A stretch of DNA of 28,191 nucleotides. Source: a virus. The stretch lies in the IMG/VR virus record IMGVR_UViG_3300046785_000036, positions 1 to 28,191 of that record, one strand, 5' to 3'. Under the pieces are notes generated by a model, which worked only from the letters and a program-made list of their open reading frames with translations, searched no databases and had not been told where the DNA came from. A program made the translations under genes and the position numbers. Position 1 is the first letter of the stretch. Every line of letters begins with the position of its first letter. This document shows, in pieces, positions 3,908 through 27,105 of the stretch.

Positions 3908-5179
3908 ATGGCTAATAATCTTAATAGCAATATTACCCGGAAAGTGGCCCGTGTCTTTTTAGAGGCATTCGAGTCCAGCCGGGTTGTTACTAAAACCGTT
4001 GACACTCAACTCCTGAGTGGCAAATTCAACCCATCAAGTGGTAGCAATGTAGACTTCAAGCGTCCACACGACTACAACTCTATCCGTACTTCTGGCGGTA
4101 ATATTTCATCCGCTACAAAGTCAGACATCATTGCTGGTAAAGCAACTGGTACTGTACAGAACTACTTCACCGTAGCCACTGAGTGGGGAAACGTCGAAGA
4201 GGCTCTGGAACTCGACCAGTTGGAGCAAATCCTTAACCCAATGGCACGACGAATCGTAACCGATTTGGAGATTGACCTTGCGAGCTTTATGCTCAAGAAC
4301 GCATCTCTGAAGTATGGTGCTCACGGTCAGGCTGTTGATGCTTGGGGAGATGTAGCTGGTGCTGGTGCACTGATGGATTCTATCGGCGTACCTGCTGCTG
4401 CAGAACGCTACTACCTGATGAACCCTTTCACAACTAGCGCACTTGCTAACATCCAGCAAGGTCTGAACGCTTCAGATCAGTTGGTTCGCACCGCTTGGGA
4501 GAATGCACAGGTATCGCAGAACTTTGGTGGTATGCGAGCCCTGACATCTAACGCTCTTTCTAGCTTTACTGCTGGCACTGGTGCTGACCGTGCGGGTACT
4601 CTGTCTGCAGCTCCTGACGCAACTTATGTCACGGCTAAGGACACTATGACTCAGACTATTGCCGTTACTGCTCTCCAAGCAAATATGGTAGTGAAGGCTG
4701 GTGATATGATTACAATCGCTGATGTGAACCGTCTAAACCTAGACACTCGCACAGCTATGATTGACGCTTCTGGCGCTAATGTGCCCTGGACAGGCGTTGT
4801 AACTGCTGACGTTACTCTTAACGGCAGTGGCGCTGGTAACCTTGTTGTTGCTGGTCCTGCGATCTATGAGGCCAATGGTCAGTACAACACTGTTGACGCT
4901 GCACCTGCTAACGGTGCCGTAGTTACTGTCCTAAGTGCTTCAGCTACCCTGTACCAACCAAACTTGTTCTTCACTAAGCAAGCATTTGGAATGGGTACTG
5001 TGAAGCTGCCTAAGCTCTACTCCACTGACACTATTGCGACTACTGAAGACGGTATGAGCATTCGAGTTAGTAAGTACGCAGATGGTGATGCCAACACCCA
5101 GAAGATTCGTTTTGACTTGTTGCCTGCATACGCAACATTCAATCCGTTTATGGCTGGTCAAGGTTTCGGCGTAGCATAA
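3908..5179 (+). CDS. Major coat protein (P22 coat family)
   Basis: A 423-residue protein, close to the 430 residues of P22 gp5. It forms the icosahedral shell (HK97 fold). The N-terminal helix with KVARVFLEAFESSRVVTKTVDTQLL, followed by a segment rich in PHDYNSIRTSGGNIS, and a later ...GMRALTSNALSSFTAGTG region are the pattern I associate with the P22 coat family. An Ala/Val-rich insertion at about residues 220-340 could correspond to the inserted domain of P22 coat. ATG 3908 follows GAGG (3894-3897) at ten bases. The gene is flanked by scaffold upstream and a strong terminator downstream, which fits a highly expressed structural gene. Confidence 0.88.
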   Translation: MANNLNSNITRKVARVFLEAFESSRVVTKTVDTQLLSGKFNPSSGSNVDFKRPHDYNSIRTSGGNISSATKSDIIAGKATGTVQNYFTVATEWGNVEEALELDQLEQILNPMARRIVTDLEIDLASFMLKNASLKYGAHGQAVDAWGDVAGAGALMDSIGVPAAAERYYLMNPFTTSALANIQQGLNASDQLVRTAWENAQVSQNFGGMRALTSNALSSFTAGTGADRAGTLSAAPDATYVTAKDTMTQTIAVTALQANMVVKAGDMITIADVNRLNLDTRTAMIDASGANVPWTGVVTADVTLNGSGAGNLVVAGPAIYEANGQYNTVDAAPANGAVVTVLSASATLYQPNLFFTKQAFGMGTVKLPKLYSTDTIATTEDGMSIRVSKYADGDANTQKIRFDLLPAYATFNPFMAGQGFGVA

Positions 5180-5195
5180 CTCTCCATTGAGATTA

Positions 5196-5220
5196 AGGGA
5201 GCTTCGGCTCCCTGTTTTTT
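5196..5220 (+). terminator. Rho-independent terminator after coat gene
   Basis: GGGAGC (5197-5202), a TTCG loop and GCTCCC (5207-5212) form a perfect six-base-pair stem, extended by an A-T pair, followed by TG and six T residues ending at 5220. The next start codon begins at 5221. It probably reduces, rather than abolishes, transcription past the coat gene, since the next structural genes follow without an obvious new promoter. Confidence 0.88.
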
Positions 5221-5496
5221 ATGCCAAAACCGAGAAAGGGCAAAGCTAAAGTTAAGGTCACTAAAAGTGGCAAGCGAGTCTCCTACGGGCAGGCTGGTGA
5301 AGCTAAAGGAGGTGGTCCGAGAGTCAAGCCGGGTACAAGTAAGGGTGATTCCTATTGTGCCCGGTCTCTTGGCATCAAGAAAAGATTGCCAAAAGAAAAG
5401 CAGAACGATCCCAATACTCCTAACAACTTGAGTCGCAAGCGCTGGAAGTGTAAAGGCGCTAAGTCGATGAAGAGCAAAGGTGCTAAGTATGAGTGA
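5221..5496 (+). CDS. Small basic Lys-rich phage protein, unknown function
   Basis: A 91-residue, very basic protein. The N-terminal half is rich in Lys and Gly. The C-terminal half has a conserved-looking core with SYCARSLGI, then NDPNTPNNLSRKRWKC, ending in KSKGAKYE. I recall similar short proteins near coat genes in other podophages, but no function is known to me. The ATG directly follows the T-run of the coat terminator and has no Shine-Dalgarno at normal distance; the nearest purine-rich GGGAG is inside the terminator stem. There is an in-frame stop just upstream (5194-5196) and no other early start. Its charge suggests nucleic-acid binding, possibly inside the capsid; this is inference. 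Confidence 0.7.
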   Translation: MPKPRKGKAKVKVTKSGKRVSYGQAGEAKGGGPRVKPGTSKGDSYCARSLGIKKRLPKEKQNDPNTPNNLSRKRWKCKGAKSMKSKGAKYE

Positions 5497-5665
5497 TGGT
5501 CTATATTCCAACATCCACAAGAAGCGGAGAAGGATAAAGCGGCAAAGAGCGCAGGGCAGAACACCTGAGCGCATGAGATCGCCGGGAAGCGCTGGAGCGC
5601 CTACTGCTGGCGCATTCCGACAGAGTGCGAGTACTGCTAAGAAGAAAGGACCAACATTCGAATAA
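5489..5665 (+). CDS. Small basic phage protein, unknown function
   Basis: A 58-residue basic protein beginning MSDGLYSNIHKKRRRIKRQ and ending in a KKKGPTFE tail, with a RMRSPGSAGAPTAGAFRQSA middle. I remember similar GLYxNIHxKRxRI proteins in other phages, with no assigned role. ATG 5489 overlaps the end of the previous gene by eight bases and follows AAAGGTG (5477-5482) at about seven bases. The GTG at 5480 in the same frame is less likely because it lies within that Shine-Dalgarno. It shares high charge and a similar C-terminal ending with the preceding basic protein, so the two may work together. Confidence 0.7.
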   Translation: MSDGLYSNIHKKRRRIKRQRAQGRTPERMRSPGSAGAPTAGAFRQSASTAKKKGPTFE

Positions 5666-25682: not shown

Positions 25683-25882
25683 GCTATGTGGTTCGGCGCG
25701 AGATCAAGGAAATCTTGCGTCATCATCCGCTGATGAATAAAAAATCGAGCATTGAGATGATCAAATTTTATAGCGAGCACATGAAGCCAGACGTTCAGAA
25801 ACGTGCTATCTGGACCATCCAGTGCCTTAAATATAATTTAGCGTGGGATATCAAAACCGATGCGATTAAAAGCTTCAGATAG
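25679..25882 (+). CDS. Small basic protein, unknown
   Basis: A 67-residue protein starting with an ATGA overlap at 25679; a GTG at 25634 in the same frame would add 15 residues rich in Gly, Glu and Gln. The core VVRREIKEILRHHPLMNKKS, then EMIKFYSEHM and KRAIWTIQCLKYNL, is helical and basic. No family is recognised. It overlaps the following NinG-like gene by 23 bases, so it belongs to the same transcript. Confidence 0.55.
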   Translation: MSYVVRREIKEILRHHPLMNKKSSIEMIKFYSEHMKPDVQKRAIWTIQCLKYNLAWDIKTDAIKSFR

Positions 25883-26276
25883 TTGGTTTAGTAAATGCGT
25901 TAGGGAGAGGGCTAACTGGACCTGTGAGCATTGCGGAAAAGCATATCCGCAGAACAGTCAAGGGCTCCACTGCAGCCACTATTTCGGGCGCCGGGCTAAG
26001 GCTGTTAGATGGGACCCGGACAATGCTTTCGCGCATTGCATGAGCTGCCATATGTTGCTTGGCAGTAATCCGCACGACTTTCAAAGATGGGCAGAGGAGC
26101 GTCTTGGACCGGGAACAGTAGAGATTCTGAACGAAAAGCGGAACGACACCAATCTGGCGAAGACTATGCACAAAGCGGAGAAGGAGATCGCCAAGCATTA
26201 CAAGCTGGAGTATGAGACTATGCTCTCCCGCCGGGCTGCGGGCGAGTCTGGCCGATTAGAATTTACAGGATTTTGA
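25860..26276 (+). CDS. NinG/Rap-like zinc-HNH nuclease
   Basis: A 138-residue protein. It has a zinc pair CEHC (C22, C25) and a second pair CMSC (C60, C63) followed by H64. Between them are LHCSHYFGRR (36-45) and a VRWDPDNAFAHC stretch (49-60) with the aligned Asn and His of an HNH-type nuclease. The HxSHYxxRRxxxxRWDxDNxxxxCxxCH pattern resembles lambda NinG (Rap), a Holliday-junction endonuclease, and related phage proteins. The C-terminal part has a KEIAKHYK helix. It would resolve or cut recombination intermediates, matching the Rad52-like and SSB-like genes upstream. NinG versus general HNH is uncertain. Confidence 0.65.
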   Translation: MRLKASDSWFSKCVRERANWTCEHCGKAYPQNSQGLHCSHYFGRRAKAVRWDPDNAFAHCMSCHMLLGSNPHDFQRWAEERLGPGTVEILNEKRNDTNLAKTMHKAEKEIAKHYKLEYETMLSRRAAGESGRLEFTGF

Positions 26277-26277
26277 G

Positions 26278-26487
26278 ATGAAAAAAGAAGAAGAGATTAC
26301 CTTCCAAATTATGACCCCAGATGAGCTAAATGAGTGGTTTATTAAGAGCCACAGCAGGTTCTCTGGAAAGGATCACGATGCGATTAATACAATGAACTTT
26401 TTCTTGAAAATGATAGAAAACTGGTTCGACGACAACGAGCAGTACATTGATAGCTATGAAGAGTACGTCACCCGGGAGTTGCATTAA
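26278..26487 (+). CDS. Small acidic protein, unknown
   Basis: A 69-residue acidic helical protein with MTPDELNEWFIKSHSRF and HDAINTMNFFLKMIENWFDD. AGGA (26267-26270) precedes the ATG. No family is recognised. It ends the recombination cluster directly before the long structured non-coding stretch. Confidence 0.55.
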   Translation: MKKEEEITFQIMTPDELNEWFIKSHSRFSGKDHDAINTMNFFLKMIENWFDDNEQYIDSYEEYVTRELH

Positions 26488-26507
26488 ACTGCGCCCAGGC
26501 TTAAGAT
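26479..26507 (+). promoter_or_regulatory. Tentative promoter for the structured region
   Basis: TTGCAT (26479-26484) and TAAGAT (26502-26507) are 17 bases apart. Both are imperfect, but the spacing is ideal and a start near 26514 would fall at the first stem of the structured region (GTCGG, 26514). The -35 overlaps the end of the preceding gene. Confidence 0.3.
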
Positions 26508-26891
26508 TGGAAAGTCGGTCTGGGTAACGAGCCCAGCAAAAGCCGACAGAGATAAGGGGGAAAGATGTCAACTGCCCGACTGGGTAGTATTGTAACACCT
26601 CTCCCTACTTTCTCAAACTGGCAGGCATATGCGTTGGTCCGCTTCGGCGTCTCCCGGCATATAAAATCTGAGGGAATCTGAGAAAGCCCTGTCATTAGCG
26701 TTATGAGTGGCTAAATACGCGCTCCGATTGGGATAACCTTCGGCAGTACGCACATTTGGCGCAGTAGAACGCTCTCAGGCGGCGCGTAAGGGCCGTAATC
26801 TACTGAGAAGGGCAGACCTACCTCTGGCCCTTTCCCTGTCTTCGACGGCGACTGACGGCGGCATATCACTAAACCGGGGCTTCGGCTCCGG
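26508..26891 (+). ncRNA. Candidate structured non-coding RNA
   Basis: The stretch 26488-26952 holds no credible protein gene but has many perfect stems. Seen by eye: GTCGG (26514-26518) with CCGAC (26543-26547), enclosing CTGGG/CCCAG; AGGGGGA (26555-26561) with TCTCCCT (26600-26606); CTTTCTCA (26608-26615) with TGAGAAAG (26679-26686); CAGTAGA (26762-26768) with TCTACTG (26799-26805), enclosing ACGC/GCGT; AAGGGCAGA with TCTGGCCCTT (26808-26832); and CCGGGGC-TTCG-GCTCCGG (26874-26891). TGGCAGG (26619-26625) can also pair with CCTGTCA (26688-26694), which would cross the third stem as a pseudoknot. The ends are guesses. It may be a phage RNA, a long leader or a replication-associated element; no known RNA family was identified. 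Confidence 0.42.
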
Positions 26892-26952
26892 CTAGGGTGA
26901 GTATTGCCCTGTAATCTCTCCGGCTCCTAACAGCAGCATAATAAGGATATAT

Positions 26953-27105
26953 ATGAATGAATTAACAAAACCGTGTAAATGCGGATCGGATATGCAGCAA
27001 GTCATTGGATTTGATGATAAAAATAGCCCATTCAGGCAGGGATGGTACTGCCCAGAGTGTAAGGCGTGGGACAAGGCTATTCTCCGGGAAAGAAATGTAA
27101 AATAA
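26953..27105 (+). CDS. Small zinc-ribbon protein, Lar-like
   Basis: A 50-residue protein missed by longer ORF cut-offs. AAGGA (26943-26947) precedes the ATG by five bases. It has KPCKCGS (C8, C10) and YCPECKAW (C33, C36), giving a CxC...CxxC zinc ribbon. The LTKPCxCGS start resembles the Lar family of small phage zinc proteins (LKPCPFCGS), which relieve host restriction, though the first pair here has one residue between the cysteines. The function is inferred at best. Confidence 0.65.
   Translation: MNELTKPCKCGSDMQQVIGFDDKNSPFRQGWYCPECKAWDKAILRERNVK

Follow-up and report, generated by a model that had tools for sequence, protein, structure and literature searches.

Few large structured RNAs are conserved across divergent phages, and two of them are GOLLD and ROOL, which build cages of RNA only. 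Both are large phage-borne RNAs with kissing loops and pseudoknots, and their function is unknown (PMC12286853). At a much smaller scale, HK022 put is an RNA-only antiterminator of ~70 nt with two stem-loops, and it shares with the RNA described here its phage origin and its place close to a sigma70 promoter where an operon begins (PMC9378689). Our RNA lies in a 28,191-nt stretch of viral DNA (the window) and resembles GOLLD and ROOL in being large and phage-borne and in its predicted pseudoknots and kissing loops, but it is shorter (~430 to 520 nt), has no Rfam match to either and does not lie near tRNAs in the window, its place being between recombination and helicase/terminase genes; the resemblance is one of style, not of membership. 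An identity with put-type RNAs of ~70 nt and two stem-loops was ruled out, as both size and fold differ. In many carriers the position is comparable to the lambda region that holds the Q gene, pR' and the 6S RNA: both follow nin genes, have a host-type promoter and precede the genes that lead on to packaging. The locus differs from that region in holding an RNA instead of a recognized Q gene, in lacking a terminator at the RNA end, and in its deviating gene order in one lineage (L149).

The window, a fragmentary virus record from IMG/VR, comes from a podovirus-like phage and encodes portal, scaffold, coat, head-tail connector and ejection genes, followed by an exonuclease, an Erf-like annealase and NinG. 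Positions 26488 to 26952 are flanked by ORFs of 69 amino acids (26278 to 26487; no PHROG match) and 50 amino acids (26953 to 27105) with no credible gene between them. The preliminary description of this interval as gene-free was borne out by its relatives: internal open frames are not common to the homologues, indels in the RNA region are frequently not multiples of 3, and no conserved protein-coding frame is shared. By comparison of sequences, positions 26513 to ~26941 are very probably a gene for a folded RNA of ~430 bases, a large structured phage RNA of a new family. The locus comprises the following features, the 5' end of the RNA being placed from the promoter and helix P1 and its 3' end from conservation.

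25860 to 26276, + strand: NinG/Rap-like endonuclease gene, upstream neighbor (phrog_5034, E 6.6e-27)
26479 to 26507, + strand: sigma70-like promoter TTGCAT-17-TAAGAT (-35 at 26479 to 26484, -10 at 26502 to 26507)
26513 to 26941 (end ~26941), + strand: structured RNA; homologues occur in the window's own clade and in eight divergent lineages, and the core model R1 scores the tested members
26953 to 27105, + strand: Zn-ribbon-like ORF of 50 amino acids, directly downstream; other lineages carry a different gene there

Relatives were found by a protein scan with NinG, and twelve of them (L002 to L013) carry the RNA at 79 to 100% identity. Conserved-motif scans and profile searches of fetched loci yielded eight divergent IMG/VR lineages (L106/L107; L069; L047; L076; L052/L089; L109 with L111, which are close to each other and counted as one; L145; and L149), so that the carriers are nine divergent lineages of uncultivated phages and one fold is common to 13 distinct sequences from them. 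A final homologue scan added zero further lineages. The core model R1 recovered ten tested members at E values of 1e-20 to 1e-31, all ten having been in its own alignment. R1 had no match in 369 genomes of one class (under strict filters and with no positive control among the genomes), in the distant NinG phages L015 to L027, or in isolated phages carrying a related helicase; BLASTN gave no homologue for five family sequences against INPHARED (L149 gave a match of 28 nt, E 0.1) or for the window RNA against PLSDB. Pattern matches in GTDB contigs (11, judged from their sequences) and in IMG/VR (L038 to L040, L110, L112, L113 and L177 to L189) were rejected as chance. Conservation relative to the neighboring gene varied, the RNA being 91% conserved versus 74% for the upstream ORF in L011, with the order reversed in L004. 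Vibrio phage 1.233.A has ~670 nt without annotated genes after NinG (L196:10605-11275), with no R1 match. By eye, an ORF upstream of the RNA in L145 (~5474 to 5630, - strand) resembles the window's 69-amino-acid ORF, and the two may travel with the RNA.

No RNA family in Rfam accounts for the locus. Rfam gave no relevant match at the gathering threshold, nor did the window RNA or the L047 homologue find one when the cutoff was relaxed to E 10, and the GOLLD and ROOL covariance models were silent at both settings. The earlier failure to match tRNA, tmRNA, group I intron or RNase P was upheld: ARAGORN found no tRNA or tmRNA fold, and no model for group I intron, RNase P, HEARO/omegaRNA or other Rfam families matched. 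A literature search did not find the RNA described; the library compared was Rfam alone, outside which recent or unpublished families are possible. Of the two readings first offered, an undescribed phage RNA is supported by the multi-pseudoknot fold, the covariation, the dedicated promoter and the lack of an Rfam family, and an origin-like element gained no positive support.

The stretch had been characterized as packed with stems, and the 8-bp stem 26608 to 26615/26679 to 26686 and the pair 26619 to 26625/26688 to 26694 are present as described. Stems in one sequence would not by themselves have been convincing: the minimum free energy of the single-sequence fold was only modestly better than that of shuffles (z of -2.15 on the + strand and -1.99 on the - strand), a value of about -2 on both strands that would suit chance folding. 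Because the single-sequence fold was only slightly better than shuffles, the case is made by comparison. The predicted fold has three parts, namely the P1/P3 pseudoknot at the 5' end, the arm M1 to M3 in the middle, and a core (P6 to P11) that a kissing loop and an H-type knot close; behind them comes a conserved 3' stem.

26513 to 26518 with 26576 to 26581, + strand: helix P1, 5' strand AGTCGG with CCGACT, compensated by eye
26521 to 26535, + strand: hairpin P2, with compensatory versions in the ten members checked
26555 to 26561 with 26600 to 26606, + strand: helix P3, 5' purine tract with a pyrimidine tract, crossing P1 in a putative 5' pseudoknot
26619 to 26625 with 26688 to 26694, + strand: helix M1, TGGCAGG with CCTGTCA
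26627 to 26662, + strand: M2/M3 hairpin inside M1 (ATATGC:GCATAT; inner CGC:GCG)
26698 to 26701 with 26769 to 26772, + strand: helix P6, 5' strand GCGT with ACGC, crossing P9 in a putative H-type pseudoknot
26710 to 26760, + strand: P7/P8 arm (GCTAAAT:ATTTGGC; inner CCGA:TCGG)
26762 to 26805, + strand: helix P9 (26762 to 26768 with 26799 to 26805), enclosing P10
26781 to 26783 with 26792 to 26794, + strand: hairpin P10, inside P9
26786 to 26791 with 26817 to 26821, + strand: predicted kissing loop, P10 loop GTA-A-GG with P11 loop CCTAC
26808 to 26832, + strand: hairpin P11
26866 to 26900, + strand: 3' stem P12 (TCAC:GTGA), with a UUCG-capped hairpin

When the core was aligned by MAFFT from sequence alone (A3), 91.9% of cells were paired versus 68.5% in shuffles, 33 of 42 pairs showed a double compensatory change, and double-change cells numbered 160 versus 49.5 in shuffles. 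The covariation score was 0.728 versus 0.255 in shuffles, none of 500 shuffles equalled it, and slid structures, a control that matters because shuffles ignore relatedness, scored 0.06 to 0.17. The core structure had been drawn by eye from the same sequences, and RNAalifold provides a more independent check: unaided on the same alignment, it returned the same nested core helices with 28 of 35 pairs compensated. An earlier RNAalifold run on the close clade alone gave a CTCAG/CTGAG pairing, a mispairing that the divergent set corrected to P9. The middle domain was likewise supported, both by scoring on alignment A4 and de novo. The covariation across homologues that the preliminary description had proposed to look for is therefore present in the core and middle domain beyond shuffled and slid controls, and by the criterion of such compensatory changes this is an RNA structure. 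Chance folding or a missed protein-coding gene has next to no probability and is refuted at the level of comparative sequence analysis by these changes across lineages, which 0 of 500 shuffles reach, and by the lack of a shared reading frame. That the RNA is real and conserved as a family is as firm as comparative data allow, and since folding was preserved while the letters changed, it almost certainly does something for the virus.

Three pseudoknots appear to be conserved: the 5' knot P1/P3, the H-type knot P6/P9, and the kissing loop between neighboring hairpins. P1 is compensated by eye as TGTTCCGG:CCGGAACA (L047), TGTGCCGG:CCGGCACA (L069), ATACCGG:CCGGTAT (L111) and GAGTCGG:CCGACTC (L149), and is weak in L106. 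For the 5' domain with the linker, in regions longer than P3 itself, duplex energy was -26.8 kcal/mol for a member's own strands versus -20.0 kcal/mol for mismatched members (reached by 0 of 20,000 permutations); no convincing version of P3 was found in L145. In the middle arm, a crossing pair had been noted in advance, and its two halves fared differently. TGGCAGG/CCTGTCA (M1) has 98.9% of cells paired, with double changes in five of seven pairs, and was also found de novo. The 8-bp stem that it was said to cross, CTTTCTCA/TGAGAAAG (26608 to 26615 with 26679 to 26686), is present in the window but was rejected as a conserved element, with 50% of cells paired on A4 versus 34 to 42% for the slid whole structure; visual inspection shows it kept in the window clade, displaced by a few positions in L012 and L004, and no equivalent was found in other lineages. 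The strand CTTTCTCA can alternatively pair with the P3 purine tract (in L004, ATTGAGAAA:TTTCTCAAT). M2 and M3 have 88% and 86% of cells paired, with double changes in all pairs.

Within the core, double changes affect all seven pairs of P7 (also found de novo), all seven of P9 (100% paired) and all eight of P11 (94% paired). P6 is 100% paired with a single double-change pair (C:G in L149), its others being one-sided or invariant, and it crosses P9 with zero bases between the helices; P6/P9 is the least well supported of the putative knots. The kissing loop forms six of six standard pairs in eight rows (L149, L106, L047, L069, L109, L111, L076 and L052), none of them from the window clade or L145, and each of the six pairs shows a double change (e.g., TGATGA:TCATCA, TAATGA:TCATTA, AAGCAA:TTGCTT, CGTTAA:TTAACG and TGTTAT:ATAACA). 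Judged by eye, the window clade and L145 use a shifted register of five pairs, with one bulged base in the window clade. P12 is compensated by eye (ACTCAC:GTGAGT and ACTTAC:GTAAGT), less firmly, and is overlapped by a motif, TAGGGTRAGTATT (26893 to 26905), that is exact in all members reaching it (L069 is cut there). The 3' part in several lineages also contains two loose copies of a (C)CNATNGGCAYAA-like element ~70 to 110 nt apart (~26855 to 26869 and ~26926 to 26941 in the window; ~66 to 150 in L047, for example).

A promoter-like sequence with a 17-base spacer had been suspected before the first stem, and it proved real: a -35/-10 pair with a 17-nt spacer, ending 4 to 8 nt before P1, is kept in 12 of 13 members (e.g., TTGACA-17-TAGAAA in L069, TTGACA-17-TAAAAA in L111, TAGACA-17-TATTAT in L076 and TTGCAA-17-TAGAAT in L149; the -10 elements of L069 and L111 were read directly from sequence). 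In 11 members the mean score was 8.5 of 12 matches versus 5.14 (sd 0.36, max 6.09) at other offsets, a result somewhat favored by P1 starts having been picked by the author. L076 has a terminator hairpin ahead of the promoter, and L052 a similar stem. Scanning of carriers past the end of the RNA gave no strong terminator, only a weak candidate immediately behind the RNA in L149, and the next gene usually starts 40 to 80 nt past the 3' motif.

Upstream genes in the lineages checked are an annealase, a RecE/YqaJ-type exonuclease, NinB and NinG; in L149, NinG, NinB and the annealase are on the opposite strand. The downstream side is readable in some carriers. In L007, L106/L107, L109, L111 and L052/L089 the RNA is followed by a ResIII helicase gene and, as far as the contig extends, by primase-like, terminase and portal genes. 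The window record stops before any helicase, the L145 contig is short, and those of L069 and L149 break off at the RNA or shortly past it. Recombination genes on one side and a helicase on the other would suit a replication-priming (R-loop) RNA or an origin element, yet what is constrained is pairing between RNA bases, and neither iterons nor origin features were seen, which makes this very improbable. Structural modules vary between carriers, with portal families phrog_156 (window), phrog_21 (L089) and phrog_145 (L107), and so do the genes adjacent downstream; in L004 an additional ORF (~5096 to 5480) sits directly after the RNA 3' motif, before the downstream Zn-ribbon gene. Because the downstream neighbors differ and L004 has this extra ORF, the RNA is not tied to one gene. 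A 5' UTR sensor or riboswitch for the adjacent gene, as a location just ahead of a same-strand start codon might suggest, is accordingly improbable, and no expression platform was recognized.

The own promoter, the changing adjacent genes, the ORF inserted in L004 and the elaborate knotted fold point instead to an autonomous RNA, the reading that we tentatively favor. A host-type promoter would start the transcript at P1, processing would release the RNA from a longer transcript, and the compact tertiary fold would act in trans while the phage grows lytically, by itself or together with a protein, in a GOLLD- or ROOL-like manner. Against this, the lack of a strong terminator and the 40 to 80 nt to the next start fit a leader equally well. 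The missing terminator and the genome position point to an operon-level cis leader, analogous to lambda Q but made of RNA, or in style to an HK022 put of far greater size, whose nascent RNA would stay with RNA polymerase and promote read-through of the operon. Such a leader comes close behind in probability: the transcript would begin with the RNA, most carriers have no terminator before the next genes, and those readable downstream are helicase, primase-like, terminase and portal genes. YA3 and OS31, two lambdoid isolates whose helicase is related, have a Q gene directly after NinG, whereas neither a PF03589 Q (window and twelve carrier contigs) nor a PF06530 Q (twelve carrier contigs) was found, in fragments where a divergent Q would be missed. 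Put is a precedent for an RNA-only antiterminator (PMC9378689), but one of ~70 nt and two stem-loops; few strong terminators are visible downstream, and the strand switch in L149 means that the Q-like position is not universal. It is doubtful that, in phages with differing structural modules, a ~430-nt multi-pseudoknot RNA stands in for the antiterminator Q where the packaging operon begins; if so, phage late transcription would be controlled by RNA alone, and on a far larger scale than by put. Whether as an autonomous RNA machine or as an RNA-based late-gene switch, the family combines three putative conserved knots with its own promoter where lambdoid phages switch to late genes, and the covariance model and promoter allow direct tests between the two.

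Two related phage groups contain a similar sequence of ~150 nt that ends in GGTAGGGTRAGTATTCCC-AAAAC, like the family 3' motif, and has no core; sharing the 3' motif only, they were not counted as members.

L126:~5250-5430, with L131, L135 and L163: core-less 3'-motif sequences, first group
L146:~690-870, with L147 and L171: core-less 3'-motif sequences, second group

These are possibly another small RNA and possibly chance.
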